Origin: Trebouxia sp. TZW2008
Lineage: Eukaryota; Chlorophyta; Trebouxiophyceae; Trebouxiales; Trebouxiaceae
NCBI GenBank assembly: GCA_002118135.1
Contig: BDIU01000012.1
Span: 1-51,983 of the forward strand
Direction of reading: 5' to 3'
DNA length: 51,983 nt
Part shown: in pieces, positions 1,559 to 51,922 of the stretch
Layout of the letters: each line of letters starts with the position of its first letter
How positions within the stretch are numbered: the stretch's first letter is position 1
Notes under the pieces: model-generated
Told to the model about the DNA's origin: nothing
Databases searched by the model: none
The model's input: the letters and a program-made list of their open reading frames with translations, nothing else
Program-made: the position numbers and the translations under genes

Positions 1559-4500
1559 ATGGCATCGGTTCCGGATGCTGAGGTGAACGGAACTTGCCTG
1601 CGTCGCGTGTTGCGATGGAAAATTGCACTCACTCGCAGTGTGTTGAGCATTGCAGGTGCACGTCATAGATCTATCGCAACCAGACAAAGTAGCTGCAGCG
1701 GCCGTACTGCACGCATGTGTAACTTCCGGCTTCTTCTACGGTACGCAAGCTCGTTATCGATATGCCAATATCATGCACTACTCATCGCACCACTCACCTT
1801 AGAATGATACCGCAGTGTCGAACCACGGCGTTTCACAGGAAATAATCGAAGAGCACTGGCTTCAAAACAAGGCATTCTTCAACCTTCCACTGAAGGACAA
1901 AATGCTTATATTGGCCGACAGCAACAACAGGTATATAGCATGCTGGCCACCTGTGCAAGCACAATCCATGGTACCATTCAACTCCACACAATCAGCACAT
2001 GTTGCCCCTTCACTCACATCATTGCCTGTCATTTGGTCCAGCATGCTGCTCATCATGAATAGACCAGATGCTAACCGGTCTATGGTGCAATCTAGGGGAT
2101 ACACGCCAATGGCAGAGGAGACTCTTGATCCTGAGCACCAGTCACAGGGAGATACTAAAGAAGGTAAAACCAGCCTCATGCTACGTCAGCAGGCGACATC
2201 CAAACTTGTGATGCAAACAAGACCAGCAGTGTCTGTTGATATCTTCATCTCACAGTCCTCACCTGCAATACAACAAAGCCCTTGCTTGCAGGGCTGTACT
2301 TTGGCAGAGACTTGCCAGCTGACAGTGACGAGGCAAAGCTCCCCTTACATGGACCTAATCAATGGCCAGCTGAGGTCAGCTTTATGAGACTTGATTGCGG
2401 ATCTGCACCCTGCAGAACTTAGTACCTGCCTTGAGCATGTATCACTGTCACACTTGCTCCCTTTGCATGGACCAAGCCATTGGCCATCTAAGGTCAGCAT
2501 CGCTAATTTCCTTTATGCTGCATTACTTGCTACATCTCCTGCTTGTCTGTGACCCTCAAAGCGGCATGTCTGCAATGCAATAGATGTACTGTCTATCATA
2601 TTGCAGACGTGGCATTGTCAAGTCTATACCTGTTCACCCGGCTCTGCAGTAGAGCCATGCGTCTAGTGTATCAGGATTGGTCTTCTAGCAGCAAATGCTG
2701 GCATGTCACACACTGGCATGACAGGGGTCAGCATGCCAAGTGACTACGATCAATTTTGGTTTCACTAACAATCAGCATGAATCTGGAGTGTGTACCGGCA
2801 TCTTTACCATTAGCAGCATATTGTTAGCAGCGGGGTAGATTCTTTTGCATCATGAGTTGGGACTGGCGACTGCATGCATCCTGAGAAATGAGCTGCCTTA
2901 ATCCGCTGCAAATGCCTTCTTGTCGATGGAATGGTCTTCCCTACAAAGGGGTGAAATGCGTCCTGTTTGTTGCAGGAGCTACTGCCTGGTTACCGAGCCG
3001 CCATGCTAGCTTACAGATCTGCTGTGCACGGCCTCAGCAACCGCCTGCTGCTGCTGTTTGCAATCGCACTGGACCTGCCGCTGCACTTCTTCGACGCCTA
3101 TTTTGACAAGCCCATGATGATGCTGAGGCCCCTGCACTACAGTGCCCAAGTGTCTCTTCCAGATGAGGTATAGTTAGCATTTGCCTGCAGCAGACATAGT
3201 GTGGTATAAATGACTGTACAGGCACTGAACCAGCCGTTGTTTTTCTTTGATGCCAACTCTGACAAGCCCATGATGATCCTGAGACCGCTGCATTACAGTG
3301 CACAAGTGCCTCTTCCAGACGAGGTCATGTTCAAATCTTCGTCCAGCATGCATATGCCTCTATGTATGATCTGAGTGGACTTCATGTCTGCTGGATGGTT
3401 GTGAGAAATTCTCGGCTGGATTGAGTAGCTGCAATTCTTCAATGCCTACCTTGACCAGCCCATGATGATGTTGAGGCAGCTGCACTACAGTGCGCAAGCG
3501 TCCCATCTGAAGGAGGTAATCAGCAGTCATCACCCTACAATCACAGCAGGAACCAGCAGTCAATCACCCTCTTATCATAGCAGTAAGACGACTCACTGCG
3601 TTAGTGATGAAGTTGATCCTGCTGGTGCGCCATCTGTTCAGGAGGTGCCATGAACTAGAACAAGTGCATCATGGAAAGGCCACATGATATGTTTGCGGCA
3701 GCAATGCATGGAAGCTAGTTCAGCTAGTTGGCCAAGCAAGTGTGCAACCTTGCGCAATGCATTATGTCTATCATTTGTGCTGCTATCAAACCGTCATCAT
3801 TTGGTGGCAGGGTGTGTATGGGGCTGGAGCGCACACTGACTATAATGCCATGACAGTGCTGGCAACAAACGACACCCCTGGCCTGCAGATCCACACTGCT
3901 GGCATTATGTTGTTCAACACAGTGCACTTCTTTGATGGTGCTGGGGCTTGCACTGACTACAGCGGCTTGCAGGAGACAGATGGTGCTGCTTGACACAGAC
4001 ATGCACACGTTTCTCAAGAAAGTTTTGATCACAGGGCGTGTATGGGGCAGGAGCTCACACTGACTATGGTGCCTTGACAGTGCTGGCAACAGATGACACC
4101 CCTGGCCTGCAGATCCACACTGCAGGGGCTTGGCAAGACGTGAAGCCCATCCCAGGCACCTTCATCATCAATGTGGGCGACATGCTGGAAAGGTGGGCCC
4201 ACTCAGTCATGCATTTGCTCTTTCACTCATGCATTCATCTATCAGTTCATCTATCTCACTCACCCACCCACCCACCCACCCACCCACCTACTCACCCACC
4301 CACCCACCCCTCACCCACCCACCCCTCACTCACTCAATCACTCACTCACTCACTCACTCACTCACTCATTCGGCATAGATACCAGAGTGAGCCAATGCCA
4401 ATGAAAGCCATTGAGCTTCTGGCTTGCATTCTCACATGCTTTGTTCTATCAATCTGTTGATCTGTACACCTAATGCCATACAAAGCATTAACTTATACTG

Positions 4501-5010: not shown

Positions 5011-6956
5011 TTCTGCACATCAGCCCTGCAAAGGGAGGTCCATCATGGCTACTCAGGGGTAGCCCACCGAAACTCCCTCCCTTTTCACAGGGGAGCAATC
5101 CATGTGGAGTTGTTTCTAGAACACAGCATTCCAGACTGTAATCACAGGCCTGACATCTGGTTCACACGAAGTCTCGATGATTGTACACGCTTCACAATCT
5201 ACGGAAGACATGACGACCACAAAGAAGGAACGGCTTTGTGAGAGCCCATCTCCCAGGCTTCACACCTTCCAATCACGCAAACTGCGTGCCAAAGAACTGA
5301 TCTTTCTATTTAGCAGAGCTATAGAGATGTGTTGCCCGTGCATCCCCTCACGGCGTTCAAGCAGCAGATTTGGGACAAGTAGACTGCCTGCCATTGTATG
5401 CTCAGTCTGTGTTTCAAGTGACCATTTGTGCATCTGAATCAGCTATTGTTCTTGTTTGGTACCCAATGACTGTTTAGATATTTGGGTCTGATGTTCATCT
5501 TTACTACAGCATGCTGTACCTGGTGATACTTGACTGGACTTACAGTTGCTTGCAACTCAGCAAATATAGCTTAGTACAGGTTGCTGATGCAGCGATTGCT
5601 GAAAATTCAAATGCTGAGTTTATGTAGCAGTGTGAGGACTTAGCACCTCGCTAGCATGCCTTTGTATCCCATATGTATCTGTAACAGTTTGCTCCTGGCT
5701 AGGCGTACGGGAGTAGCTACTAGCATACTATACTAGCCTCAGAGTCTGTCGTCTTGAATGCAGCTTTGTGTTCTGTCTTCAGTAAGTCCTGTGGCAAATA
5801 TGTTGGTACAAAGCTCTTTGATGGACTAGTTCTTTGAGCCTGCAGGGACTTCTCTCTTTCCAGCAATGCAAACCTGTCTGCTACATTGCTGACAAACTTG
5901 CGAGCAGATACAGTATTTGCTCGCAATCTGCAGTAGCTGCAGCTGTGGACCAGGCAGGATACATTCTTTGTGTAAGGTGATGCCTAAAGCAAAATGCAAC
6001 ATTCTGTGCCACAATCAGGCCTTGAAGCACCTGCCGACCGATCAAGGTGTCCGTGGTTGGCAAGCTACTGTGTGCCATAGCTGATCAAGAAGCGACGCAC
6101 CATACAAAATTTGAAGTGCATGCTAGTGATGGGACTTTTTGCTGGAGGAAGCAGCCTGGCCAATGCTGATGACTGCTGAGCAATGTGCACAGTTTAGATC
6201 ATTGCACACGCAAAAGCAAGCAAGCCGTATGCAGGCTGTGATGTGAGCCTGCGAAGGCTGTTCAGCAGTCTCAAAATATGCCGTGCATTGATGAAACAGC
6301 GCACCATGCACAGGAGCTGCGAGCAAATGTTCATGCAAGGCTTGCAAACATAACCAGGCACATTTACAAGCCGACTCATGTCGATAGGACATTACTAGGG
6401 GCAATCATTTCAATCATTCCTTTGTGCTCTAGGCCTATATGCCGAGCTTTGTCATCATTCTGAAACAGTGCAATTGCCACACCAGCAGGCAAAGATGTCC
6501 TTTTCACAATCAAGCACAAACAAAAAGCCCCTAGTGATCAAGACAACAAATGCAGACTAGACTAGACTAGACTAAGCTTCACTGAGAGGCACCCATGCTC
6601 ATCACTCCGCCACCTCAGACCCTGCAGCATGCACAAAGGATTGTCACAGGCAGCTTGAGTAAGGAAAACTTGACTTACAAGACATGAGAATATGTGCATC
6701 ATTGGTGCATGTATGTGTGCATGCTGCACTGCATTCAGCACTTGCTGTAAAATTCAGGAAAGCTAGATGCATGAAAAGGGCTGGCACAATAGTAGCAGAT
6801 TCAGTTTTGATAGGCCATGCAGTTTACAGGGCTACATGGTCTCAAATGTTGGTCTGTCACAAGAGGCCTAATGGAAGGTCAACGGTGCGCATAAGGCTGG
6901 TGGACACACAACTGATAGCATGATAGCAGGCTGACACAGGTGGAAGTCCAACACCA
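5011..6956. other. Convergent intergenic region, no gene recognised
   Basis: This is the space between the 3' ends of the oxygenase (+) and the membrane-protein gene (-). Open frames here are short, lack splice-consistent partners and match no family I know. A short (TAGAC)n run lies near 6558. The stretch may hold the 3' UTRs of both genes, and possibly a further 3' exon of the minus-strand gene. Confidence 0.5.
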
Positions 6957-9900
6957 CTAACAAAACAGCAGGCTGACAAAGGTGCAAAACTTACAAGTGC
7001 AAGTCTGCAACATACTGCAGAGCATGCAAGCACAAGCGTCAATGCAAAGGGCTGAAGGCTTACTTTTAGATTTAGAGCTAAAGGTGCGACGCAGTCTAGC
7101 CCCGAAGCCCTTGCCCTTGCCCTTGCCCTTGACCACCTCCTCATCAATCGTGGCCATAGGTCCAGCAGCAGAAGTTGACTCCATGAAAGCACCATCACTG
7201 AAGCCGTTGAAGGGAGCGGTAGTTGGCCCAGTAGCGGTGGCAGTGGACTTGCTGCGCTTCACCGCCTTGATACTGTGCGCCTTGACCTTCTGCTGCAGCT
7301 CCTTGAGGTTGGTCTTCATGGCAGCCATCCTCTCCTTCAATGAGGAGGACTGCTTCTGTAGCCTGCGGCCCTTGAGAGGCAGCCCAATCTGCAGTGCAAC
7401 AGCACATTCAGCAAACTGATAATCTTTGCAAAACAGCATCAGCCACCATGGTTGAGAACTCCAACATGCAAGCACAATGACAAGCACGTTGAATGACACC
7501 ATTGCTGAATGATCTTCAAGCAGCTCTCTCTGTTGTCAAAGCAATGATGGTACACACACATTTCTGAGAAGGGCAAAAGGCAAGCAATCAAGCAAAGCAT
7601 TACGTACTATAACACCCGTACAGACAGCGTATGACAGCAGCAAAGTCACCTCCGCATCCATGGCAGGGGGCAGGTCAGATGGACTCAGCTCAGAATCGAA
7701 CTTGAATCCATCCCCCCTGAAGCCCTGAGGAAGACCCATGGCAGACACCGACACAGGTGACTGCATTGTAGACAAGGCAAGGGGGGTCTCAGCCCCATCC
7801 TGGGGGGCCGGCTGGATACCCCCCCACTCAGCCCCAATACCAGACTGGCTCCTGCCCCTCGGTGTGAAATGGTACTCAGAGGAAGTCTCGGAAATGGAGA
7901 AACTCAGGTCAGGAATTTCGGGGCCATGACCGGAGATGGGGTAGCCGTAGGGTGAGGGGGGGTTGGGGGCGGTGCGGCCCTTCAGCCTGTCCTGGAACGA
8001 GGACAGGTTGGACCTGAAGGTAGAGATAGCCCGCTGAGTGGACGAGGAGCGCTGCACCTTAGGACCAGCCTTTTCCTGCAATTCAGCGTATAGCAAATCA
8101 GCATCAGCAAGATATAAGAAAACAATGTAATACAAGAGGTGTGTAACATAGCAGAGGAGGGGTTGTGTTTGAGCAATCACCAAAATTTGATAAGGCACCG
8201 GGACTGATGACAATGGAGCATCAATGATAGCACGGTGCACAGGAAGATCTCCAGCAGCATTCAAGGTCGTACTTGTAACAACATCGTAATGTCTGAAAAT
8301 TCAAATTCACGTACACACTCATTTTGAGCATGCAGCGTCTTTAACATCTTGACGCCTGGTGCATACAACAGAAGCCAAACAGACACAAAGCAGCAAACAC
8401 AAGCATGCATGATTACAAACAGCAGCAGTGACTTACATGTACCCTGGACACCCTAGAGAAAGTTGGCGGACTATGCAAACAGGCACAAAGCAGGCATTGC
8501 AGAAAGCAAGGGTCGCTTACATGTGCCCTCATCACCCTGGACACCCTGGAAAAAGTCGGCAGCCTATTCCGCTCCACCGTCCTGACAACTCCTAGCGGAA
8601 GATCCCTGGCACCAAACATAGGACCGCCCATCCTAGTCGGCAAACCAGTCCCCCCGTACATGGAATCGAAGTCGTCTTCACGGAACACTTTCATGGGCTT
8701 GCCGTCAGGCCCCAGACGGACAGGAGGGGGTGGAGGGGGCATGACCTGGGGGCCCTCAATGTCCGCAAACCCATATGCCTGTAGACTGCCCTGGCTACTG
8801 ATCGAAGCCTGGCTGGTCAGGGATGCCTGGCTGGTCAGCGCAGACATGACAGACACTGCACAGTCCAGTTCGGGATAGAACCCGACTGGGGATGTGCACA
8901 TGGGGACTTCGCTGACATCATGGGCAGCAGGTGCAGAGATTGCAGGGGTGGGGTTGGTGGGAGGGTTGGTGGGGGGGTTGGTGGGGCGGTAGAGGGGGGG
9001 TGGGTCAGGGTGGGTTGAGTTCAGCCCAGATGACAGAGCCCGAAAGTCAAGTCTAGGCACAGGGCCCAACTTGGGGGCAGCGGTGAAGACAGGACCGGTA
9101 CAGGGGGCATCTGTCTCAGAGATGGTGCGTGAGGTCTGGGCGGAGGAGATTGATGACTGGCGGGTGTCAAGCGCCTCACGGAATGTAGTCAAAGAGGCAA
9201 TGGGGATGACTCCTGTGGATGCTGTAGGGGGTGAAGGAGGGGCGGTGGTGGGGTTGAGGGTAAGGTTTGGGGTCAATGATGTAGTGGACCCCAAAATGTC
9301 GTCCTCGCCCATAATTCCTGCAGCAGCATGAGCCAGGGTGATTGATGCATTGAAGGGATTGAGTTGTTTGTGAGCAAACGGATTTGCGCCACAAAACAAA
9401 GTGATTTGCACATGTGCATGGGTGTTTGCAATATAGTTGAGGTAACATCAATTGCAATAAGCGCAGGCACTTGTCAGCATGGCATTGCAAGCAGAACACA
9501 TGACACTGCCTTCCATATCAATATTAGCACACGCAAACATGCTTCCAATCATCAGTCTGCTACAACCAAAAAGTAAGATGGTACACACTGGTTCATCGGA
9601 GAAATGGTCATGCATGCATTGAATGACTACTGCATGCATCAATGGCACACATGCATGCAAAATGATTAACTATTTGCATCAGCAAATGAAAGCAAACATA
9701 TGCTAACATTGTGAATAGCGCACTCAGCAGAGGCTGCAGGTTTTGCAGCATGCAACAAGGGTCAGGAGGCAAAAGCACCAACAATGCCTCACAGACTTTA
9801 TTTGTTGATACTTTGGCCTCCTCACCTTCCAATGAATGCTGATTGTCTTGCAAACTCTGCTGGAGGTGACTATCACAACAACAGGGACTATCAGGCATCT

Positions 9901-12449: not shown

Positions 12450-12639
12450 CGGAGTGGGCGGGGTTGCTTCAAGACCCCTCAGCCGTCAGCGGCAGTGGCA
12501 GCAAGCGAGTGCAATCAAAATGACGACAAAAGCATCTGCTGGCGTGACTTGCGCGCTGAAGACTGAAGGCCTTGGTCCCGCAGCTCGAAGTCAAATTGCG
12601 GGCGATAGGTCATCAGTCAACTTTGGCTTTAGTCACGAT

Positions 12640-13134: not shown

Positions 13135-13142
13135 GTCAAGAT

Positions 13143-14385: not shown

Positions 14386-17300
14386 TCATATTGCCAAAGG
14401 CATTGACTTGCATTCTTTCCCTTTTGCCGTCACAAATGACTGTGACCAAGGCTGCAAGACGCAACTTGAAAGTGTTGAGTGCAAGGCAGTTGGGATGTAC
14501 TGATCAAATCCTTACCAGGGCTGCACTGTGCTGAGTCTGCTCTGCATCTCCAATCTTGCTGCGGTCAATAGCTTGCAGAAGATGTTGCCATGTAAATACA
14601 GCGCTGCTGTAGCTTATTGCTGCAAGTGCTTCCTTAGTGATGATGTCTGCATATGCAAGCAACTTCTGCCAGACCTGCAGCCAAGATGACTACTGTTCTA
14701 GGCCCTAAGTCTTCACAACGATTGTAATTGCAAGAGCTGGAGAGCAAGCACCAGATGCTGCCTTTATGTCATGAACAAATGCAGATGGCGCACCTGCAGT
14801 ACCTGCTTCTACAGGTGACAGATTGTGGATGCATTTGCAGTTGCTTGTGCAGAGCAGCTCCTATTTTCAAAGCGTCTGACGGGCTATTGTGATCCAGGCT
14901 CTAGGGCTCTGATGTCCATCATCGAGGCTGGGCATACCTGATCAGAAACATCATTCTCAGCCATGTACTTGCTGACTGCCGCAAGCACTGCCCAGGCAGC
15001 TTCTTGCCCTTGCTCAGCTTCTTCTTCAGCAAACTCATCATCAAATCCGTAGTCATTCTGGAGCACTTCAAGAACAGCAGCAATGGCTTGTGCCTCTTGT
15101 GACAGTTCTTGCAGCCAGTGCTTGCTGTCCAAACAAGCCAGAATGACCACCAGCAAGCTCAACGTGGTGGCTCTCTGATGCAGCACTTCATGCAGTGCTA
15201 GCAACTGAACCACCACCAAGCACAAGGGCCTGCTGTGTCGAGCAAACAGTGGATCGTCAGGGTGCTGTGCAAACACCTGCAACAACACTCACTGTCTGAT
15301 TCCAGTAAGCTTCGCATGGCGGCTTTCTGATGCAGCACTTCATGCAGTGCCAGCAATTGAACCACCACCAAGCAGAAGGGCCTGCTGTGCTGAGCAAACA
15401 GTGGAGCGTCAGGGTGCTGTGCAAAGACCTGCAATAACAATGATTGTCTGATTCCAGCGAACTCTGCATGGTGGCTTTCTGATGCAGCACCTAATGCAAT
15501 GTCAGCATCTGCACCACCACCAGACACAAGGGCCTGCTGTGCTGAGCAAACAGTGGATCGTCAGGGTGCTGTGCAAAAACCTGCAACAACAATCACTGTC
15601 TGCTTCCAGTAGGCTCTGCATGGTGGCTTTCTAATGCAGCACTTCATGCAGTGCCAGCAACTGCACCAGTGCCAAGCACAAAGGCCTGCTGTGTTGAGCA
15701 AACAGTGGATCGTCAGGGTGCTGTGCAAACACCTGCAACAACACTCACTGTCTGATTCCAGTAAGCTCTGCATGGCGGCTTCCTGATCAACACTTCATGC
15801 AGTGCCAGCAACTGCACCGCCACCATGCACAAGGGCCTGCTGTGATCAGCAACCAAAGGATCATCAGGGTGCTGTGCCAAAACCTGCAACAACAATAATT
15901 GTCTGATTCCAGTAAGCTCTGCATGGCGGCTTTCTGATGCAGTAGTTCATGCAATGCCAGCAATTGCACTGCCACCAAGCACAAGGGCCTGCTGTGCTGA
16001 GCAAACAGGGGATCATCGGAGTGCTGTGCAAAGACCTGCAGCAACACACGTTTTCTGTTCCAGCCACAGACTGAAGATGATCGACAATGCTACCAAGTCT
16101 TCAGTGCAACAGTCGTAATGCATCATAGTCAGTGCAGTTGAACCAGGCGGATTATGAAGCGTTGCTGCTTTGGCAGGGCAAGTATGCAGACGCAAAGCAG
16201 CAAGAGTTGTCCAGCAGTTGATCCTACATGTCAAATGACCGTGGTCACTAAATCAACATGCCTGCAGAAGTGCATGCAAGACTGCTGTAACAATGTCGGT
16301 GCAAACGGATGCATCACCTCACACAAAGACAGAAGGGCCACTACAGCACTTGGGGTCAGGGCAGGGCCAGATGGGCTCTGTTTTCTACTGGACCTGCCCT
16401 CTGGTGACTCACTGTGACTGTCTGACTGCAGAGTTGCACTGTAGCGCTTCAGACCATGCAATACAATGGTCATGACGCCTCCTTGCAGCGCTGATTGCAC
16501 AGTCTGCTCACGCTGGTACAGGATTGCCAGCAACAGGTCCAGACTCCTAAACAACAGTACACAACCTTAATCACTTGAAGGCAGACTGCAGTGCTTCACT
16601 GTAATGCTTCAGACCATGCAATACAATGGTCATGACGCCTCCTTGCAGCGCTGATAGCACAGTCTGCTCACGCTGGTACAGGACTGCCAGCAGTAGCTCC
16701 AAACTCCTGAACAACAGTACACAACCTCAACCATTTGAAGGCAGACTGCAGCGTTTCACTGTAATGCTTGAGGGCATGCAACATCATGGGCAAGGTGCCT
16801 GCTTGCAGCGCTGTTTGCACAGTCTGCTCACGCTGGTACAGGACTGCCAGCAGTAGCTCCAAACTCCTGAACAACATGACACAACCTCAATCACTTGAAG
16901 GCAGACTGCAGCGCTTCACTATAGCGCTTCACAGCATGCAACATGGTGCGCACGATGCCTGATTGCAGCGCTGTTTGCTTTGTCTGCTCACGCTGGCCCA
17001 TAGCTGCCAGCAGTAGGGCCAAACCTCATGAACAACAGTCTACACCGTGCCTCATTTGACGCCAGTCCGCAAGTGGGCAAAGCTGAAAACTGTGTGACAC
17101 ATCATGAAACTGGCTTGAGTACAAGATCACAAAGAGGCGGCATAGCATTGATGTGCATGGTCATGCTTGAGCATATACTGTCTGTGTCTCAGACTAGGTT
17201 TTACGACGTTGCAATTTAAAGACATGCCGAGTGTCCGGCAGACTGGGCCAATTACCTTTCATACAGGAGTGAGTTGAGAGTGTTGTCGAATATCCAGATC

Positions 17301-21643: not shown

Positions 21644-23414
21644 TCATTGCCGCTTGTAATCACCAGACTTGCCGCCTGTTTTGGTCTCTAGTCTGACAAG
21701 CTCAATACTGATGCCCTTGTCCAATGCTTTGCACATGTCATACACAGTCAGAGCTGCTACTGATGCAGCCACCATTGCCTCCATCTCCACACCTGCCAGA
21801 AGCAAACATGTATCTTCCCATTCTAGATCTAGCAACACAAGTGAAGTGTATTGCCGCAGCTGCAGTCATAGCGCAATTTGTCGCCCTTTGAATATCATTC
21901 CCTGACCGGCTATGCGGGCATTTGTCAAGATCAGATGTGCCTGCCAATTGAAACACTGCATGCATCACGATGACCAGAACGCACACAGTGTGTCAGCGGC
22001 TGGTCAGCGACATAATGACCCGCCTATGCCTGTGCTTTGGCCATGGCTGCGGTATGACTGCATTGTATCATCCAGCACACACAGCCCAGCAACAGCTGGT
22101 CAGCAACATGTTCACCTGTGTGTGCCTGTGTCTTGGCCATGGCCTCAATATGAATGCCTTGTTATGCAGCACACACACAGCTGGTCAGCAAAATAGTCAC
22201 GTATGTATGCACGTGTCTTGGCCACGGCTGTGAAGCAAATGCCCTGCTGTTCAGCACACATAGCTCGGCATCGGTTGGGGAGGACAACAGCTACCTGTGT
22301 ACGCCTGTGTCTTGGCCATGGCTTCAATACGAATGCATTGCTGTTCAGCATCAAGGCTGAGCTGGACATCAACCTTGTCCAAGGGGATGTTGTGGCACAG
22401 CGGGATCAGTTGAGAGGTCTGCTTTGCACCCATGATACCTGCAATGTTTTTGGCAGACTTGATACACTTTGCACCAATTCTGCACAGTTATCAGAGCAGT
22501 GTTCACAGTCTGTGCTGGCAGCTTGTGAATGTTGCTGAAGCAACACAGACAGCAATGCTCGAACTTTACAGCAGCATCCCGTGTGTCATGTCAGCTAAGA
22601 TGTGCTAGCAAGGCAGCAACGGCAGTCAAAATGTGCCAGTAACGCAGTAACATTAGCTGAGATGAGCGAGGTAGCGCTTTACCTGCTAGCTGGGCCACAG
22701 TCAGGGCATCTCCCTTGGCAAGCTTACTGTCTGATGCAACAGCATCAAACGCTTCATCATTCAGCTGAACCAGGGCAGATGCTGTTGCGGTTCTGCTTGT
22801 GACGCGCTTCTGCAGTCGACAGTCTGTGTCATTGCTTCTCAGCAGCATTGAAATGTGTATGCAAGCAAAATGCCAAGAAAGCTCAAAGGGCGCATCAACG
22901 TACCTGACCTACATCAACCATGTGTGCTTTGCCGTGACTGTCCAGATGAGTCAGCTTAGGAGGCGAAGCTTGTCTCTGGCCACTCAGACTTTCAGCATGT
23001 GCGCTGAGGCCTGACACTGCTCGCGCTTGCTGCGTCTGATCAAGATGTGCTAGGTCTAGCTGGTCTGGAGCAAATCCAAAGCTTGCCTCCTGCAGTGCAG
23101 TTGCTGCTTGTATTGAACTCCATTGCTGCTACTGAGCCTCTCAAGAGACATGCTCACCCCAATGTTTGCAAATCCATCCTGTACAACATCATGACAACCA
23201 TGAATTCAAGCTGGCCTTGTCCGGCTAGCGATATAGCTTGATCAGTGAACACCTGGGCATCGGGGCTGGTGAAGTCAGTGTCCTGTCGTCCGACGCCGAC
23301 GGGCGCTGGAGCGTGGAACTGCCTGATGAAGATCTGTGATGTACAAGGTTGGTGCGACCAGAAGTCTTCGAGAAGTCGCAAGCCTCTTGAGGCCTGCTGT
23401 ACTCTGCCCAGCAT
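21644..23414 (-). CDS. CNX3: Cyclic pyranopterin monophosphate synthase (MoaC/CNX3), probably mitochondrial
   Basis: Secure exons in transcript order: one ending at 22904, then 22809-22683, 22438-22295, 21792-21644 (stop). The protein carries the full MoaC signature: [16 protein letters not shown], then a TSRTATA segment, [29 protein letters not shown], and MCKALDKG to GGKSGDYK. The catalytic Lys, His, Glu and Asp positions of MoaC are visible. The enzyme converts the MoaA/CNX2 product into cyclic pyranopterin monophosphate for molybdenum cofactor. A first exon from 23414 ([18 protein letters not shown], then [11 protein letters not shown]) looks like a mitochondrial presequence, as in plants where this step is mitochondrial. 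The exact junction joining it to the 22904 exon is unresolved. Three decayed copies of the exon 22438-22295 tail follow it. Confidence 0.92.
22015..22345 (-). repeat. Tandem copies (~95-bp period) of the 3' end of a MoaC exon
   Basis: Four versions of the same block recur at about 22305-22340 (functional exon end), 22210-22262, 22118-22175 and 22020-22075. In minus orientation each has TGTGCTG followed by GCCATGGCCAAGACACAGGC-like sequence. The three extra copies lie downstream of the working donor and have lost the reading frame. Confidence 0.9.
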
Positions 23415-24474: not shown

Positions 24475-29320
<4,846 letters not shown>

Positions 29321-31324: not shown

Positions 31325-31425
31325 CTGCGTGCGCAGCCAAGCAGCCCTTAACAACAATGACAACTACACATTCCAGTACACGTGCTGGGTGTGTGTGGCC
31401 CAAGTCCTGTCTTGCAAGGCAGGCT

Positions 31426-37165: not shown

Positions 37166-40146
37166 CTACATGATGACACAACAGCAGCACTTTTTGTTTA
37201 TTTTCTCATCCTGCAAACTCGGCTTGTGCGGCACACCTGCTTCAGCACCTTCTGGCATGCTTACTTCTATATGTTCTGTTGACACAGGTGCATTGGGATG
37301 AGCGTGACCATTCTGTGCCTGCACCCCACAATCCATGTATGTGTTGCTCAGCCAGCACAGCCATATGGATAATTGACCAGACAGCAATGATTGCAATTGA
37401 GGCCCTTGACAAAGCTTTGATCTGACGACACAGATGTATCAAATCGAGCATGACCGTTCTGTGCCTGCACATCTCAATACATGTTGGGGGGCATTGGCCA
37501 GCACAGCCCAATGCACAGTTGACCTGGAATGGAATGGTCAACATCTGAGGCCCCTGTTGAAGTTGTGAAGCAGTCAAGGGCACATTGGGATGAGCATATC
37601 CATTCTGTGACTGCACACTGCAACGCAGCTTTGATATCTTGGGCAAAGGAATGTCTGCACACACTGACCAATGCCAACGTCAATGCATATGAATAGGACT
37701 ACAGCTCAGTGTTACAAGGTTGATAGCATCTGTGGCTGTGGTAACTTGCGACGGTCAGCCAGCATGGCCCTAAGCACAACTGATCTGACTGCTGTGAGAA
37801 ATGAGGAGGACCATTCGTGCAGCTGTGAATCCAGCAATGCACACCACAATGCAACTTGCGATGGTCAGCCAGCACTGTCCTATGCACAATTGATCTGACT
37901 GGGCTAGCAATAGTGAGGATTGCTCATGCAGCTGCAGAGCAATGATGCCCGACGCTGTTGCCAATGTCATCGATCTAGAAGCAGGTTCCCACAACTGTAC
38001 TGAGAATCAAGTTTGGAAGGCAACAATATGCTCAGCAGCAACCACTTGACATAGTATTGATATACAACATTAGACACAGAAAGCGCTGTCAGCAATAGTA
38101 ACTCTTGCTGCCTCATTGCTACTAAGCTATTGGGCTGGTACTTAGCTATGATGCCCTATCTGCAAGACAGCGACGTGTGATGTTAAGTTATTGCTCGTCC
38201 GCTACATGTTTACTCCAATTTGCTGTGCATTCATGTGCATAGCGTACTTGTTATAGCAGTGATATTGGCGTTGTACCTGATGCGCCTCTTCAGGTGGTTT
38301 ACTGGCAATCTCTGCAGTCCCTGCGGCTTCTGTAGTATTGCTCAGCTGCTCATTTGGTTGCGCTTGGGCTTGAGGTTGTGAATTCTCAGCCTGTTGAGCT
38401 GCAGCTTGGTCCGCTTCAGCAGCCTGCAAAGTCTCCGGTTGTGCCAATCCTGTACAAAAACATCGTTTTGTACAGACACACATTGTAAGGACATCTACAT
38501 GTGAACACACAAGGCCATTAGGAACCAACAACTGCATTCTGACTGGAGTGGTATTCCTCAAGGAGGACGACTGATAGTGTCAATCCTGTACAGAAGCTTC
38601 TGATTGTAAGCACAGGCAATATGAGGACATTCTTGATGTAAGCTTGAGGCCATTGGGATCATTCTGGCAGCAGTTTCACCTCTGAGTAAAAACAACTTGG
38701 TGTAAGAACAACTTTCTTGGCAAACAATGCAGTCATTATGAAGAGAAAGAAGAGATTCAAAATTGGTTGGGGGAGGGTTATAGGTTTTCAATTCGCAAGT
38801 GCAAAGACAGAACTCACAAGAGCAATGTTTGATCCATCTGATGATCAGCAGCAGGCAGACCAAACCATATGTAAGACAGCAGGCAAACCAAACCATTTGT
38901 AAACAGCAAGCAAAAGCGTCTGCAAACAAAGCAGTGTACCATTTCTGCCATCAGATGCAGTAATGCTGCTGGTGTCAAGCTCAGCAGAAGCTGACTGCGC
39001 AGGTGCAGCAGGAGTAATTTTGATAAACGACGCAATCAACTTCAAGAGAAGGGACAGTACCAGTTCTGCCATCAGATGCACTGATCCCGCTGGTATCTGG
39101 CTCAGCAGAAGCTGACTGCGCAGGTGCAGCAGGAATCCTTGACTGGAACGGCAGGAACAGTTGCTGCTCCTGTATAAGCTGAGGCTCTTGGGGATTTGCA
39201 GTAGTGACAGCAGCTGCTGTGCCGTTGGGCGTTTGATCCTTTGCTGAATTGGGTCTTGAGCCTTGACTTCTAGCAGGCTTAGTGCGTGTTCTGGGCTTGG
39301 CCGAGTTTGCTCTGGTTAGCTGTGTGCTGCCTGCCTTTGGCAGTTGGGTGCTGCCAGTTCTTTCAAAGGGCCCGCCTAACGCGGCGTCTGTTTGCTGGGT
39401 GTATTTAGGGGCAGGAGCTTTGCTGACATTTCGCCATACAGGCTGTCCATCTGCAAGAACACTCAGGACATCAGCAACATCATAGCATGCTGCCAGTGTT
39501 TTCAAAGGGCTCGCCTAATGCGGCGGCGTTTGCTGGAGGTACTCAGTGGGAAGGGCCTTGCTGACATTTTGACATACAAGCTGTTCATCTGCAAAGATAG
39601 CAAGAGTGTCTGCAAGTTTACCAGTCCCCACCAGTGCAACTGCAGTACTCCTCGGTCAAAGCACTGAAGCAGCAGTGGGCGTCAGCAACACAACAAACGC
39701 AGCCGCACATCTTGACTGATGCTGTGATGTCAAGTATAAAGTGACATGAGCTACTGCTCGCATGTTTGCTGCCAGATGGTCAACATGCTTGAGCTTATGC
39801 ACAGGTTTCTGATGCTCATTGGTCAGCATGCTCAGCTCAGCACTCTGCTGTAGCGCTGCAGCACCTGTGGCAAGAGCTGAATTCTGACACTGAACATGCG
39901 TACTTTAGCGGTTGCATATCAAAAGGCTGCCTTTGCAAATGCCTTGCCGAAGCAACACACTGGCGATGGAAGTGGGCAGCTTTTTCTGACCTTCTGCAGT
40001 GTCAGACACGCTTCTCGGTGGAGACGCCACAGCAGGCTTGACAACCTTGGCCTTGCTTGGCGCCGCAGTTCTGCTGTCATCGGCCATTCCAGATCTGCTT
40101 CGCGTCACAGGGCTAGCAGAGGCAAGACCACCGCGGCTTGAAGGTC
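37166..40146 (-). CDS. Disordered protein ending in a CaaX prenylation box (CVIM), 5 exons
   Basis: Exons in transcript order: 40146-39991, 39450-39061, 38449-38277, 37610-37524, 37318-37166; phases agree and give about 318 residues. The chain is Ser/Ala/Pro/Gln/Thr-rich (SRSGMADDSRTAAPSK; QAAEADQAAAQQAENS) and probably unstructured. It ends DEKINKKCCCCVIM, a classic CaaX box preceded by extra cysteines and lysines, so farnesylation plus palmitoylation and membrane attachment are likely. No folded domain is recognised. The 5' end is open: exon 1 needs a preceding exon ending in phase 1. A donor at 41028 inside the small gene to the right would fit. Exons 4 and 5 are related to each other (QNGYAHPNVP and QNGHAHPNAP), suggesting one arose by duplication. 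Exon 2 is flanked by partial copies of itself. Confidence 0.65.
37330..37900 (-). repeat. Tandem repeats within the last introns of the CaaX gene
   Basis: Two repeat themes occur. First, the exon 4/5 head (TGTGCAG acceptor, then CACAGAATGG) occurs at 37610 and 37318, with a decayed copy near 37470. Second, a block like GCCAGCACAGCCCAATGCAC followed by AGTTGACC occurs near 37340, 37497, 37760 and 37868. Confidence 0.8.
38940..39035 (-). repeat. Copy of the tail of CaaX-gene exon 2
   Basis: Matches the end of exon 2 (39061-39140), encoding PAAPAQSASAE and ending in a TG|GTAC donor; it lies just downstream of the working exon. Confidence 0.88.
39486..39610 (-). repeat. Copy of the head of CaaX-gene exon 2
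   Basis: Matches the start of exon 2 and its acceptor (39360-39475; in plus orientation CTTTCAAAGGGCCCGCCTAA, then GCTGTCCATCTGCAA). It lies just upstream of the working exon and its frame is broken. Confidence 0.88.
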
Positions 40147-43247: not shown

Positions 43248-44946
43248 ATTGCTGACACTGCACCTGTCTACAAGCGCTATACAATGCAACACAATGCCAT
43301 GCTATGCATTGCGATGCAATGCAGTGTCAGGCCATACAATACACGCACAGCAAAATCACTTCAAATGCGTCGACTCAGACAGTCTGAGGCTCCTATGAAC
43401 ACAATGCACATAAATCTGCTGTTGTGTCAGCCACTGCTCAGTGCCATCACTTGATGACACAGAGTGTTGTTGTATTCACACGCCGGATGTTGTGTCTTGC
43501 TGAACATGATGCAATGCAAAGCCATGCACTGACACAAAATTGAAATGCATAACAGTACACTGCAAAGCATGAAAATGCAATGCAAAGCAATGCACCTTGA
43601 TACAATTGTATATGGCAATGCATTGCAAAGCAGCAACAGTGCACTGCTTTGCCTTGCACTGCAGCGCAGTGTATTGCATTGTATTGCGTTGCATTGCATT
43701 GCATCGCACTGGTTGCTTTGCTTGACGCTGCATTGCTTTGCATTGCACAGCTGCGCCTTGCATTGCACTGTGTTGCGCTGCATTGCATCGCGTTGCACTG
43801 CATTGTACCACACTGCATTGCTTTAGGGCAGTCATTGTATTGCCTCACATCGCATTGCACTACATTGCATGGCATTGCTTTCTTCTGAACTGCTTTATAA
43901 TTGTTTTGCACTATTTTGCACTGCTTTGCGCTGCATTGAATTGTTTTTCATTGTTTTGCGCTGCATTGCATGGCATTGCACAGCACTGCATTGCATTGCA
44001 TTGCATTGCATTGTATCATTTTGCATGGCTTTGCATTGCTTTATTGCATTGCCCAACATTATATTACACTACTTTGCTTTGCTTTGCACTGTCTGCGCGC
44101 CGCAAAGGGGAGGCAGCCGGCGCATGGTCTGCTGCACCGATTCGATCAGCCTGTCAATGTGAACGGGCGCACCGTGAACAAAGTCAGGTTTGGACTGCTG
44201 GCTGCTCGCACAGACTACAGAGTCATTTTCGCAATCCTTTGCTTTGCTTTGCACTGCTGTGCACTGCTTTGCTTTGCATTGCTTTGAGCTGCTTTGTTGA
44301 GCTGTGCATTGCGACGCTCTGCATCGCACAGCTTTGCATTGCATTGCGTCACGGTGCAGTGCACTGCATTGTACTGCATTGTGTTGCGTTGCTTTGCATG
44401 GCTTTGCATTGCACTTATGCCATTGTCTGACGTTGCATCGCGTTGCATTGCGTTGCTTTGCACTACATTGTTGTGCTTTGCATTACATTGCGTTGCAGGG
44501 CAATGCACTGCAGTGCACTGCATGAGCTTTGCTGTGCTTTGCATAGTATTGCATTGCTTTGCACTGCACTGCACTGCATTGTTGTGCTTTGCTCTGCATC
44601 GCTTTGCTTTGCATTGAATTGCGTCACTGTGCATGGCTTTGCAGTGCATTGCGCAGCTTTGCATTGCGTCATGTTCAACAAGACACAACAGCAGGTGTAT
44701 GACTACACCACCATTCACTGTCATCAAGTGATGGCAAGAAGCAGTGGCTGAGACCACAGCAGACTTGCGTGCGCTGTAATCATAGAATGCATTTGAAGTC
44801 TTGGACTGCCTGTGTCATAGGTTTGTGAAGTAATTTAGCTTTGGTTTCATTGTATGGCCTGACACCGCATTCCAATGCAATTCAGAGCATGTGATTGTAT
44901 TGCATCGTATTCTATGAAATTTGTAGGCGTGTGCAGTGTCAGCAAT
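43248..44946. mobile_element. 1.7-kb element with ~280-bp terminal inverted repeats and TTGCA-rich interior
   Basis: The left arm runs from ATTGCTGACACTGCAC (43248) to about 43523. The right arm, inverted, runs from about 44655 to GTGCAGTGTCAGCAAT (ending 44946). Shared blocks in order are GTGTCAGGCCATACAAT, ACTTCAAATGC, TGTCAGCCACTGCT-like, TGCCATCACTTGATGACA, and GTTGTGTCTTG followed by TGAACATGA and GCAATGCAAAGC. The interior is nearly all degenerate TTGCA repeat apart from a unique segment at 44094-44240. No transposase and no clear target duplication were seen, so the element class is open. It could be a non-autonomous DNA transposon or a foldback element. Confidence 0.8.
44094..44240. 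other. Unique segment captured inside the TTGCA element
   Basis: About 150 bp of normal-complexity, GC-richer sequence interrupts the TTGCA repeat. On the minus strand it stays open and reads like ordinary protein (PDFVHGAPVHIDRLIESVQQ, then TMRRLPPLCGA). It may be a captured gene fragment; the source gene is not recognised. Confidence 0.55.
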
Positions 44947-44970
44947 AACAAGCCGGTTGTCAGTTCAGAG

Positions 44971-46148: not shown

Positions 46149-49100
46149 ATGCATACCAGCGAGGCAAAGAAGCAAAGCTCGCCAGACGCATGGCTGGCGG
46201 ACTTGCTGTCAAAGGCGCTTTTGTTAGAATACCAGAAGCCTGTCAAGCAGAGCAAGCGGAAGAACAAGCGCTTGAGCAAGAAGAATCGCACGTCCAGCAG
46301 CAAGAACCGTGCTGGGGTTGGTGCAAGCCCGAACGACGATGCAGGAGCAATCCCTCAGCTTGCTTTAGATGTAGCCGACATGCGCGCATTGACTGCTGCC
46401 ACCTTGGGGAGCATTGCCATGTACCAACCTGGTTCAGCACAGAGCTGGCAGCAGGCAAACTGGCGCCTTGAGGATGTTCCAGTCTTTCAACTGTTTGCAC
46501 AGGTTAAGAGGCTGCTTGGGAGGTAGGATTTTCACCTGCTGCGTGCTTAGAGTGTCAGCAGTCCAATGCGCTGTGCCTGTTCCCCCTCTGAAAACCCCTC
46601 TGAAAGCAAAGGAAGGCCACCACAGACCCTCGTTGCAGGGTGCCAATACCCGTGCCTGTCAGCCCGCTTGGCGCAAGTCAAAGGGCATCACAGTCACATA
46701 CAGCTGCACCAGGCGCATTGCTCAGAAGCACAGCAAGCAGTGCTCAAGAGCAGCCTTCAGCAGACAGCATCAGCCATGTACACAAGCTGCTGTCTTTACC
46801 AAGCTTTGGCAAGGTTGTCTACACATCCAGCAACTGCAGCGCTACTCTGCTGAAGCAAAACAGCTTGTCTGTTTCAGTTCCCAGGCCTTTGGGAGTGGTT
46901 GATGCAGCTCAGACATCATTGCAGGGCAATGCCAACTCCAGCTTACGCCTGCCCCCCCTGCAGTTTGACAGCCTGTTTGAGAGTGGCAACCTGTACAAGG
47001 CTATGCAGGCAAGTCGTCATCGATAGTATTGACAACAAGCATCACTGATTGGAGACATTTGATTGCGCCAGTATGTACCTTGTTGGGCCTGCTGAGCCTG
47101 CCTGGCATGTGCATTGAATGCATGCATGAATCAATCACAGCATGCCTTGCAGAATGTCTTTGAGCCAGGCATTTGAAGAGTTTATGGGCAATGCTGTGGT
47201 TGGAGTGCATTGCTGCCTCCATGGACTATTGCTGCATACCTGGCAGATTCATACTATTCAATGCTAGCTTCGTGTCAGCCACTGCATGAGGCCTGTGTCA
47301 GCATTGAACCTTGATATAGCAACAGGCGTGCTGGAAAGATGCCTATGGGCATCAGCATTGACACAAGCTGCTGCATGTTTTGTCATCCTGAGAGCTCATG
47401 CCAGACATCCTGAGTCATAGTGCACAAACATGATGCAGAAGAAGTTTGCGCCTGACATAGTACGGTGCTTGCTGAGTACAGGTGTCATCCCAGGAGCATG
47501 AGCTGGGGTTGCCATGGAGGGAGCTCATCAAAATTGTTCAGTCATGGTGCACCACATGATGCATCAATTACATTGTCCCTCAGATGTTGCTGCACTTGCT
47601 GGTTACAGGTGTCATCTCAAGAGTATGAGTTGTGGCTGTCACCAGATAGCAGCACCACTGGCCATACACAGTGGTACTTCTTCAGCATTGCCAATGGGAA
47701 GACTGGCGTGCAGTACCAGCTGCACATTCACAACTTCAGGAAAGCTCACAGCTTGTACAGTCAGGGACTGCAGCCTCTGCTGCACTCAACTGTAGAAGCT
47801 GAACAGACTGTGAGTCCGTCTGCTCATGCATCACAGCATTTAATTTGGTTCACTGCAAAGTGTGCAGAAAATTGCAAAAAGCATAGCATTGCAAATATGT
47901 ATATGAGATGTACACCAGAAGCTTCATAGGTGAACAGAGGCATGAGAATGGGCTGATGCGCTTCTGCGACAGCCTTTTGACAACATCAGTATCAGCAGTG
48001 TCTTCAAGCTGTGTGTGCTCTCTGTTTGCAATGGAGAAGACAATTTCTGCAGAGCATGCAGCTAAAGCATGTTGCCTTTGCCATTCACATGGGCCTTACG
48101 CTTGTCTTTTGACCAATGTCACTGCATGCACAGCTCATGACAACCACTGCTGCTTTCATTTCTGCATGTGGCATCAAACAAGAAACAGAAAATACGTGTC
48201 AAAAGTCGCAGCAATGCAGCAAGTGAGCCGCAGAATGGATGTTGCAAAGTGCCTTTGGCAAGCCTTGATATGTGTCAGCTGGTTGCCAGGGCAGGAGCAG
48301 GTTCAGGGTAGGCAGTGGGGTGAGCTACCATCCGACCAGCATAACTGGGAAAGCTGTTTTCTGCAAAATGTGCTGACAGTGTTTAGCAAGCCTTGACATG
48401 TATGGCTGCTTGTCAGGGCAGGGGTTGGTTCAGGGTAGGCAGTGGGGTGAGCTACCACCCAACCAGCACAAGCGGTGAAGGCTGCTCCCAGTACACACTG
48501 ACCTTCACCCTGACAGTGCCTCATGACGATGACGTGGTGCACCTGGCTCACTGCTATCCATACTCCTATACACACCTGCTCAGGTAATCATACAAATGTT
48601 TGGGACTCCCTTGCAGTGGATTTTACTGCATTTTCTTATGTCAAACCCAACAGTCCACAGTGAGCTGAGGCGCTTTGAAGCACAAAGAATTCGTATACCA
48701 CCACCAGCAACTACCGCTGTGCAATGTATCACCACTGTCAAATGTATCACCACTGCTTGCCTGCAAATCATAGGTCAAGAGGGTCATTCGGCACAAAAAG
48801 CATCAATTTACAAGGAGCTGTATCAGCTGGAGTCACAACAGCAGCAGTGCATGCAGTGCAAAGCGCTGTGCCACAGCCTGGCTGGCGTGACTGTACTCCT
48901 GATCACCATCATCAACCCCTTATCTGAGCCTCACACCCTGCATCTCAGGTCAACAGGGCTGTTGCTTATCAGCAGCATTGCTTTGCAGGGATCTAGATCA
49001 GCTGGAGTCGTTGCCACAACGGCAGCAGTGCATGCAGCGCAATGTGCTGTGCCACAGCCTGGCTGGCAACCCAGTTCCCCTAATCACCATCACTAACCCC

Positions 49101-51922
49101 TCCTCTGAGCCCCACACCCTGCGCCCAGCTGTGGTCTTCACAGGTCTGCTTCCCCTCCCCTGCCCTGCACAGTGCATCATCTAGTGTGCCCATCAGCCAG
49201 TCTTTCTAGTATCAGATTCTGCTGGGCTAGTCTGCTGGGGTGGTGCCAATAGCGCTATGACTTGCAGTGGCTTGCTGAAACCTTCAGCTGCAGGCGATCC
49301 AAGATGTTTTAGGGCCTTGCAAATCTACATGCTGAAGCGATGCTTGCACAAGCTTGCACTTTGCTGATGCTGTCCTCACACATGGAGTTGCGTCAAGTTT
49401 GAGCACATCGCTTCCATCAGTGCGGTCTGCCTGAGTGCTACCTACCCAAAGGACAGCATGTCTGTGTCAATCCCTTCCAGCAAATGCATGGACTGTTGCC
49501 AGCCCCTGCATCTTGGGAGCAAGTCACATACATACCTCGTTTTGTCTGATTGTCAAAAGTTTGAGTATCAGACGTCCCTACAAGGATGCTCAGAACAAGT
49601 CTGCCTGGTGAGACAGGACCTGGGCACACACACCTAGCACATGTGCTGGAACGCGTAAATATTTTGTATATAATTCCATTTCAGCAGAGGGTGCGAAAGC
49701 TCATGCACTCGGACTCAGTGTATGCTTGTCAGCAGGGCGGGTACATCCAGGTGAAAGCAATTCCTCCTGGATCATGAGGGGCTTGCTGGACACCCTCACT
49801 GGCCCCTCCCCTGAGGCACAAGCCCTCAGAGACAAGTATCTCTTTATGGTATGCTCATCCTGATTTTGCGGTTGGTGCACCAATGCCTTCTGATGACCTG
49901 CATCATTGTTGTGTTTAGTGCTGCTGAGCTCCTCAACCTTGACTACAAACTAGCACACATGATACAGATGTCTTGCCCAGGTTCAGCTTCGACTGCCATC
50001 ATGTGATGCTTGATTGACCGCTATTGATCAAATGCTGTTTTGCAAACATTGCTGAGGTGTATACTGATTGGTCAGGTGGTGCCCATGCTGAACCCGGATG
50101 GTGTGGCATTTGGCAACTACCGGTGCAATTTGGGAGGGTTTGACCTAAATCGGGTGTGGCAGCAGCCAGATCCCCTGCTGCACCCTACCGTCCATGCCAC
50201 CAAGACCCTACTGCAGCAACTGCAGGCTGAAAGAGGGGTGAGGCTTGATTGCTCATGTTGAGGCTCATTTGAGCAGCATGCAATCATGCATGATGATGTG
50301 ACTGAGCAAAATGGCATAGCCTGGTTCCTGTACCCACATGCTTGCTTTGACCTGTGATAACATCTGAGGCTTAAACGGCAGCCTTTGGATTTGGCACAAT
50401 CTTTGATGGCTGTAGCTACTTCAGAGCCTGTGAAGTATCGCATGTACGCCATGCTGCTTCATCATTGGTTCAGTCTCTCCATATGTCTCTCCATATGAAC
50501 TTATGCAAGCAGCAGTCTGTGCCAGGCAGAAGCTGTTTGCATGGCTGAAACAGTGCACCCATTCTTGCGCTGACAAGTGCAATAGCTGATGGTCAAGCTG
50601 CATGCTGAAGACAAAGCTAGTTGCTGTATGCCCATTCTTTACGCAGCTGCTGTGCAGGTGGCGCTATACTGCGATCTGCATGGCCACTCCAGGAGGCATG
50701 GCTGTTTCATGTATGGCTGTGAGCAGCCTTCTGCATCCCAGGTAAAACTGCAGCTTAGGGTCTACAATGCAAGGACTACATGTCTGCATGCATTCTGTGA
50801 TGCAAGCAGCAAGTTGCAGCACATCTGTACAAATTAGCCCATTACCTCTGTAAGAATGCTCTAGGATAAAAGAGCAGTATGAAAGCACAACAAAGCTGTC
50901 TTGCATGGTGACCAAGTATGCATCTTTGATGGCTCACTTGTGACTTGCAACTTGGTGTGGCACTGACACATCATGCACATATATGACTGTAGAGCAGGCA
51001 GATTGGTCTTATGCAGCACAATTGGCTGATGTGCCAGCCGTGCAACTTGTTGATACTGTCAAGCTAAGCAAGGCATTGCACGGCTCATTCAGGGGCCGGC
51101 AGAGCTGGATAGCATCAGTCCTTCAGGGCAGAGTGACAGGCAAGGCAGTGCACGGCTGTTTCCCTTCATGCTGCAGCAGCACTGCCCAGACCTCTTCTCC
51201 TTTGATGCCAGCAGCTTCAGGGTGCAGCGCAGCAAGGCCGGCACTGCGCGAGTGGTGTGCTGGCAGGAGTTGGGCATTCTCAACAGGTATGCTGATGCCT
51301 ATTGCAGTGAATGTGCATTTTGGAAACATGTCCTGCTGCAGAAGAGCAGCTTCAGAGAGCAGCGCAGCAAGGCTGGCACTGTGCGGGTGGTGTGCTGGCA
51401 AGAGCTGGGCATTCTTGACAGGTGACTTGCATAGTGCAATTATACCAACAACAGCAAGTGTGCTCAGTCTGTCCTGCTGCAGAATCCGCACCTATACCTA
51501 TACCTATACCTATCGTGTGCATCATGCATGGTGTAGAGTTGCCTGTTTGCGTACCACATTCTTTGTGGCATGGCAGTCTTTGCATCTTTAGTCCGTGTGC
51601 AGTGCTGACACTAGTTGCCTGCTCGACACTGATTGCTCCCACTTACCATATTTGGCTGCATCAATATCACAGTTCATTAGGTTATATGTTTCTGGCAGGC
51701 AATCAACAGGCTTGCAGCACCTAGCACCTGCGCTAGAATGCAAAATTTGTTGCCACCATGATGGACAGGTATGCAACCTTGGGTGCCTGCTTTGCAGCTA
51801 CACCTTAGAGGTTTCATTTGCGGTCCCAACACAGGCAGCTTGCTGGCACCCACTATGACATCAGCCAACTGGAGTGCATTGGCTCTAGCCTGGCTCTGAC
51901 GTTGCTGGACTATTCAGACCCT
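46149..51922 (+). CDS. Cytosolic carboxypeptidase (M14, AGBL/Nna1-like tubulin deglutamylase), 5' and central part
   Basis: Exons: 46149-46522, 46639-47008, 47609-47809, 48417-48583, 48989-49143, 49736-49848, 50076-50237, 50658-50741, 51132-51286, 51798-51922; the gene runs off the right edge. After a basic low-complexity N-terminus comes the CCP-specific N-domain (QFDSLFESGNL; TGHTQWYFFSIANGKTG; AHCYPYSYTHLLR). The M14 domain follows, with zinc ligands H426 and E429 (RVHPGES) and H522 (CDLHGHS), substrate-binding GNYR and DLNR (residues 473-485), and the YTLE catalytic glutamate. Such enzymes trim polyglutamate from tubulin and related acidic tails and are typical of ciliated lineages. Intron 2 uses a GC donor (ATGCAG|GCAAGT). 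The last exon needs one extra base at two homopolymers to stay in frame. Partial copies of exons 3, 4, 5 and 9 lie in introns. Confidence 0.92.
47470..47530 (+). repeat. Decayed copy of the head of carboxypeptidase exon 3
   Basis: ACAGGTGTCATCCCAGGAGC followed by ATGAGCTGGGGTTG matches the acceptor and start of exon 3 at 47605-47640 (ACAGGTGTCATCTCAAGAGT). It lies upstream of the working exon. Confidence 0.85.
48274..48350 (+). repeat. Decayed copy of the head of carboxypeptidase exon 4
   Basis: GCCAGGGCAGGAGCAGGTTC followed by AGGGTAGGCAGTGGGGTGAG mirrors the exon 4 start (48412-48460). It lies upstream of the working exon. Confidence 0.85.
48813..48953 (+). repeat. Copy of carboxypeptidase exon 5
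   Basis: Encodes YQLESQQQQCMQCKALCHSL followed by an ITIINPLSEPHTL-like end, close to exon 5 (48989-49143; DQLESLPQRQQCMQRNVLCH). The frame is still open, but the exon lacks the PAVVFTG end and donor of the real exon. It lies upstream, about 165 bp away. Confidence 0.88.
51341..51421 (+). repeat. Copy of the 3' half of carboxypeptidase exon 9
   Basis: After a TGCTGCAG the sequence repeats the last ~80 bp of exon 9 (SSFREQRSKAGTVRVVCWQE, then LGILD) and ends in AG|GTGACT. It has both splice edges and an open frame, so it could be used as an alternative or pseudo-exon. It lies downstream of the working exon. Confidence 0.9.

Follow-up and report, generated by a model that had tools for sequence, protein, structure and literature searches.

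Several described systems come close to the arrangement found here. In the potato RdRp gene, a tandem genomic duplication across an intron-exon boundary made a new spliced intron (Ma et al., 2016; PMC4974935), and a review treats tandem genomic duplication as one way in which introns arise (PMC3443670). Rogers-type intron gain involves duplication of an exon segment bearing AGGT, and internal gene duplication is described alongside it (PMC4974935; PMC3443670). In the C. elegans helq-1 system, end joining by polymerase theta gives tandem duplications and patchwork insertions (PMC8654963). Introners build up sequence in introns genome-wide (PMC9860276); a family of that kind has related copies in many unrelated genes. 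Direct repeats of 4-30 bp that pair the two ends of an intron are described at intron/exon borders (Rogers and Bendich, 2025; PMC11782384). In a chromosome-level Trebouxia genome paper, "intron" occurs once, in a reference title, and "tandem" does not occur in the main text (PMC12712428).

The window studied here is a stretch of 51,983 nucleotides from the green alga Trebouxia sp. TZW2008, probably a partner in lichens, in which copies of exon starts and exon ends lie in the adjoining introns. Like the potato duplication as described in PMC4974935, these are local direct duplications over an intron-exon junction that supply a second acceptor region. However, the potato case is one event that gave a new spliced intron, whereas the alga holds tens of events in about 250 kb, with decaying copies, and most of its young pairs have a spacer. 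Rogers-type gain, as outlined in the same source, shares the short intragenic tandem duplication that doubles splice signals. The algal copies are not introns of that type, since none of the 54 copy edges comes as close as 6 nt to the predicted splice site on the far side. The helq-1 duplications reported in PMC8654963 are also direct, start at about 100 bp and are occasionally accompanied by templated insertions, but their median is about 1 kb against an algal spacing of about 155 bp. Introners, in the account of PMC9860276, are likewise a genome-wide accumulation of sequence in introns. In contrast to their related copies, the algal ones are private to their genes: none of the 54 intronic copies matches elsewhere in the 252-kb sample at E 1e-4, and a mobile family was rejected on this ground. 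The repeats of PMC11782384 are shorter; the algal blocks measure from tens of bp up to more than 100 bp and match the edge of an exon to the interior of an intron.

Boundary-crossing tandem duplication is already known; its abundance here and its gapped form look new. The literature search, mostly outside the subscription journals, found no report of exon-edge copies throughout introns at such a scale. If the abundance is real, traces of copying are present at roughly one predicted exon edge in seven in the window and in a seventh of the sample's predicted intron DNA. Extended to the whole genome, the copies would amount to many natural trials of a splice site against its own copy of estimable age, a test bed for intron growth and for how splicing ignores decoys; they would also allow intron growth to be followed event by event and provide raw material for new exons or introns. 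Annotators should be warned that ghost exon edges can be predicted as exons.

Exon-edge copies in the window and across the genome

The window is one whole contig of a 68.5-Mb assembly in 527 contigs. A wider sample takes in 15 other contigs, picked by number rather than drawn at random, and covers twenty stretches of 10 kb, six of these stretches being contiguous. Exon edges in the combined 252 kb come from a home-made, self-trained HMM predictor that was trained on the same 252 kb and merges genes; it returned 451 exons and 407 introns, and called ghosts as exons, the SAAL1 array included. The predicted acceptor consensus in this sample is strong, TGCAG/G (the slash marks the splice junction here and below), with T at 0.80, G at 0.81, C at 0.96 and the following G at 0.70.

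Self-BLAST of the window, restricted to same-strand matches less than 3 kb apart of at least 30 bp and at least 40 bits, gives 93 local direct pairs. An island of pentamer repeats at 42.05-44.95 kb contains 57 of them, which were left aside, and 36 lie elsewhere; three dinucleotide shuffles of the window gave 0 pairs each outside the island. Within the island, TGCAT/GCATT pentamers repeat in degenerate form over about 2.6 kb (42100-44700). Each predicted exon edge was also compared with its own flanking intron, a copy being scored at z above 6. By this test 18 of the 130 predicted edges of the window are copied in the intron next to them; predicted exons that were themselves judged to be ghosts (3222-3323 and 51342-51421) account for at least two of these edges.

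The original prediction placed such copies in seven genes. They are clear in six of these, encoding a 2OG oxygenase, a SAAL1-like protein, MoaC, an aminotransferase, a CaaX protein and a carboxypeptidase (Table 1). For the seventh, a "membrane protein" gene that the predictor runs together over 6602-12613, the support is one short pair (34 bp, 85% identical), and no other edge in that predicted gene is above z 3.0. Pfam matches support three of the gene labels (2OG-FeII_Oxy, MoaC and Peptidase_M14), and the Pfam search gave no match for the SAAL1-like, membrane or CaaX genes. The aminotransferase matches a protein of Trebouxia sp. C0005 (80% identity over 99% of the query) and, at 68% identity, one labelled Astpho2, a label we take to stand for Asterochloris; these matches point to a Trebouxia or a near relative as the likely source. 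The CaaX label is consistent with a minus-strand open frame at 37169-37438 with the tail KKCCCCVIM (CVIM at 37169). The predictor also merges into the 2OG gene a reverse-transcriptase-like open frame at 450-1244 (FDTVPRAILWQ..GCPLSPALFGLYVDGLE..YADDLILMS), presumably a LINE fragment.

Table 1. Copied exon edges in the window (positions of the window) and in genes found through Pfam matches elsewhere in the genome (contig handles)
Feature	Position	Strand	Identity, spacing or basis
2OG oxygenase exon whose end has two copies downstream	2976..3167, donor at 3167	+	
2OG exon-end copy 1 with donor GT, in the downstream intron	3222..3325	+	83% identical, spacing 156
2OG exon-end copy 2 with donor GT	3428..3518	+	81% identical
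2OG copy of the next exon start with acceptor AG	3800..3902, upstream of real 4024-4126	+	88%, spacing 224
Membrane-protein gene, exon-end copy	8441..8474, real 8534-8567	-	
SAAL1-like array, about six 152-bp units of acceptor and exon start; exon body attached to the last unit (acceptor 15276), remaining units upstream	15150..16064	-	
SAAL1-like array, about four 160-bp units of acceptor and exon start	16424..17071, real acceptor 16546	-	
MoaC, exon-end copies in the downstream intron	21999..22350, real donor 22295	-	
Aminotransferase, two exon-start copies in the upstream intron	25857..26068, real acceptor 25769	-	
Aminotransferase, three worn exon-end copies, CAG/GT intact in two	26358..26642, real donor 26755	-	
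Aminotransferase, two exon-start copies of the same exon as donor 26755, both with CTGCAG/GAAAGACC	27051..27311, real acceptor 27014	-	
CaaX-protein gene, pair with acceptor copy at 37464	37272-37378/37418-37524	-	
CaaX-protein gene, intron-intron pair	37743-37791/37853-37901	-	
CaaX-protein gene, exon-end copy	38936..39134, real donor 39061	-	90%, spacing 121
CaaX-protein gene, exon-start copy	39349..39594, real acceptor 39450	-	82%, spacing 139
Carboxypeptidase, exon-start copy	47413..47641, real acceptor 47608	+	
Carboxypeptidase, exon-start copy	48254..48484, real acceptor 48433	+	
Carboxypeptidase, exon-start copy	48799..49122, real acceptor 48988	+	
Carboxypeptidase, exon end in two versions, the first taken as real from the usual look of such proteins	51210..51423	+	89%, spacing 135
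Aminotransferase, exon end copied downstream, with stop	C243		Pfam matches
tRNA synthetases, exon starts copied upstream	C193, C47		Pfam matches
HSP70, one exon start with two upstream copies, another with one	C150		Pfam matches
HSP70, two exon ends copied downstream	C165		Pfam matches
Kinesin, exon start copied upstream	C79		Pfam matches

Exon-edge copies in introns are real and genome-wide. A scan beyond the window, by which the original prediction could have failed, found non-simple local direct repeats in 18 of the 20 stretches, in 72 clusters or 3.6 per 10 kb. The density in the window is similar, at 3.3 per 10 kb (17 clusters, the pentamer island counted as one). Across the 252 kb, 103 of the 407 introns contain at least 25 bp of such copies, which make up 14.5% of intron bases compared with 1.6% of intergenic bases. 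An assembly artefact might be suspected in a genome of 527 contigs, where one of the twenty stretches contains 91 N; with repeats spread over so many stretches, and with copies that are 69-92% identical over the 54 edges and differ base by base, the probability of such an origin is negligible.

Evidence independent of the predictor comes from Pfam matches across the genome, where nine clear doubled exon edges were chosen by eye out of the match tables, all of them with the predicted polarity. Direct repeats were confirmed in the DNA of the HSP70 genes on C150 (88-89% identical) and C165 (86%) and of the tRNA synthetase gene on C47 (86%). Base by base, the HSP70 gene on C165 keeps AGCAG/GT at three successive exon ends, and three units of that on C150 start with CAACAG/GTAG or CATCAG/GTAG. 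Further overlaps beyond the nine are ambiguous and chiefly in kinesins, which have 152 matches; among the matches listed, one overlap is clear and several are unclear by eye. The 68 chaperonin matches genome-wide gave only one doubtful overlap.

Polarity and placement

The combined 252 kb contain 196 local direct pairs, of which pairs within one array are mutually dependent and not independent events. Fifty-one have one copied acceptor edge, with the copy upstream in 47, and 28 have one copied donor edge, with the copy downstream in 27. In 40 pairs both sides are coding; 29 of these link different predicted exons and 11 touch a single one. Another 58 pair intron with intron, and intergenic DNA takes part in 5. 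The remaining 14 pair exon with noncoding sequence and have both edges, none or a terminal edge, and stay outside the polarity count.

The predicted polarity, starts copied upstream and ends copied downstream, thus holds for 74 of the 79 pairs with one internal edge, against 5 on the other side. Part of this polarity is geometry: randomly moved pairs fall on the expected side 27.8 times and on the other 13.4 times, about 2:1. Geometry accounts for only part of the observed ratio, and the excess therefore needs a filter or a preference.

Exon-intron clusters number 46, against 27.9 expected by random placement (sd 4.3), an excess that prediction error may inflate, whereas intron-intron clusters are at 18 against 25.7 expected. 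Exon-edge ghosts are over-represented in part through longer visibility, as one partner is held still by selection. The junction excess is however larger than the 1.3-fold longer visibility obtained by simulation, and the copying may also have a preference for junctions. Intergenic clusters are at 2 against 8.1 expected, a shortage that uniform duplication does not predict.

Duplications inside exons were expected to break the protein and be lost. In line with this, pairs confined to a single predicted exon number only two, and in both the spacing is divisible by 3. Yet coding-coding clusters as a class are not depleted (19 against 22.4 expected, sd 3.8); many of these are probably ghosts called as exons.

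Spacing, spacers and the proposed copying step

Direct pairs outnumber inverted ones by 196 to 9, and this dominance speaks against break-repair insertions of the kind that use either strand. Over the 54 copied edges the median copy spacing is 154.5 bp, with 46 of them at 90-215 bp, so the unit of 90-180 bp first proposed was about right. Block length is anticorrelated with spacer length, and spacing is the least variable quantity; for the youngest 26 (at least 84% identical) taken alone, this tightness is not significant (permutation value 0.06). A spacing of about 155 bp is of the size of a nucleosome or an Okazaki fragment, and a link to either is a guess.

The blocks often span the splice junction: at 26 of the 54 edges at least 20 aligned intron columns extend beyond position 6. 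This part of the original account, duplication across the junction, is supported. A contiguous form fits most of the youngest pairs poorly. Thirty-seven adjacent pairs are at least 84% identical; 27 of them are separated by sequence without detectable homology, 4 by a homologous spacer, and 6 are contiguous, whereas 323 simulated contiguous duplications of the same identity gave 6, 4 and 313, respectively. At least two of the 27 are in arrays whose spacer matches other nearby units, and in 12 the spacer is only 21-46 nt, a length at which the test has little power, though simulated pairs rarely leave spacers. About nine of the 27 have spacers longer than 50 nt and flanks that both give p above 0.05; two of these nine show some flank similarity in an edge-anchored test. 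In the 2OG gene, the 121-bp spacer between the real exon start at 4024-4126 and its copy is unrelated by test, and a worn third copy is readable by eye inside it. Most young pairs do not appear to be plain contiguous tandem duplications.

A plain tandem duplication could still underlie these pairs if the intronic half of one unit was later deleted or replaced, or if gene conversion renewed the exon half. We regard this as a possible history, though on balance a doubtful one. Contiguous cases do exist, among them the SAAL1 arrays and the HSP70 gene on C150 (289 bp aligned, spacing 174, 89%), and 44 of all 139 adjacent pairs are contiguous. Such pairs are more frequent below 75% identity (23 of 35), partly because only long alignments stay visible at that age. 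The edge-anchored test finds the intron flank homologous at 39 of 54 edges (p below 0.05) and not at 15, and the tight spacing would suit a primary unit of about 150 bp. Weighing against it, besides the spacers of the youngest pairs, is that intron-intron pairs are gapped as well, where no exon half is held still. Four of the eight listed at 84% or more are gapped, the clearest being L004:9254-9316 and 9349-9410, 95% identical with an unrelated spacer of 32 bp.

A process that recognises exon ends, for instance through RNA, would leave copies bounded by the splice site. Similarity does drop abruptly there in several edges, and 19 of 49 blocks end no more than 10 nt from the splice site (five edges with blocks over 250 bp were omitted). 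However, random placement with block length fixed already gives 26.5% (p = 0.07), 30 of the 49 blocks reach further into the intron, and intron-intron pairs occur. Similarity between a copy's flank and the predicted exon next to it reaches p below 0.02 in only 8 of 54 cases, and the two such matches that were inspected are both in arrays. Recognition of exon ends is thus a very improbable explanation. Copying bounded by splice sites, for which an earlier extension measure had seemed stronger, was rejected on the fixed-length comparison, as were spliced-RNA templates on the neighbouring-exon matches. Offset homology left by deletion was found in 1 of 13 cases tested and was likewise set aside.

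The reading we consider likely is local direct copying within genes, whose junction copies sit in the intron and change like unconstrained DNA. Within genes, short stretches of DNA would be re-copied as direct repeats at a distance of about 155 bp, probably by a slip or re-copying in DNA replication or repair. Copies that harm coding sequence would probably be removed by selection, the spliceosome would go on using the real site that adjoins the exon body, and the intronic copies would decay neutrally. Re-copying does not account for the spacers, the intergenic shortage or the junction excess beyond 1.3-fold. A bolder form of the idea, which we think unlikely, is that introns grow largely from their own exons, through re-copying, as opposed to plain tandem duplication, that has about the step of a nucleosome, prefers junctions and lays in live splice sites; many splice sites would then stand next to a row of decaying copies of themselves, ignored by the spliceosome.

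Fate and age of the copies

Mismatches between exon edges and their copies were counted by codon position over the 54 edges. They amount to 154/1175, 136/1174 and 264/1159, or 13.1, 11.6 and 22.8%, at positions 1, 2 and 3. Such a 1:1:2 ratio is that of a pair in which one partner is under constraint and the other, here changed by about 12%, is free. Of 30 gaps within the exon part, 24 disrupt the reading frame. In appearance the copies are non-coding leftovers; coding constraint and a kept frame, as in tandem alternative exons, were not found over the 54 edges. Mismatch in the intron (21.0%) and at third positions (22.3%) is about equal in the 26 pairs that align over 20 or more intron columns, which fits exon and intron parts copied in one event. 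Joined to one another with every copy left out, the aminotransferase exons align to the Trebouxia protein with a single gap of one amino acid, away from the copied edges, and require no new intron.

Splice dinucleotides are kept in 41 of the 54 copies (donor GT 15/20, acceptor AG 26/34), close to the neutral value of about 0.88 squared. Neither retention nor removal of the decoy sites by selection is apparent, and together with the codon pattern this weighs against the suggestion that they act as regulatory decoys. Functional copies, whether alternative exons or decoy sites under selection, would be in keeping with the many intact AG or GT seen by eye in the SAAL1, aminotransferase, 2OG and HSP70 arrays. 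They would also suit the scarcity of stop codons (4 in 1113 codons against about 10 expected by our own arithmetic), a slight pull against neutrality. Set against the codon pattern, the frame-breaking gaps and the near-neutral dinucleotide retention, such a function is very improbable indeed.

Repeat hypermutation was considered and set aside; substitutions between copies have a transition/transversion ratio of 1.29, with strong CpG loss. CpG sites differ between copies in 350 of 447 cases, compared with 714 of 1889 for GpC, and this fast loss suggests cytosine methylation.

A very high ongoing rate of duplication had been proposed from the density of copies in the window. Many events are seen, and a very high current rate is not established by them: the youngest pair is at least 95% identical in 2 of 87 clusters, whereas a simulation with constant birth gives about 13%, or about 11 expected. 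Either the process has slowed or the youngest pairs were collapsed in assembly.

Two repeats of other kinds were seen in the same DNA. In the window, an 80-bp direct repeat at 30457-31431 (81%, spacing 895) falls either outside the predicted genes or at the margin of one. In the wider sample, L014:994-2246 carries inverted repeats 97-98% identical (994-1226/2014-2246 and 1417-1605/1734-1922), which may represent a mobile element of recent origin.
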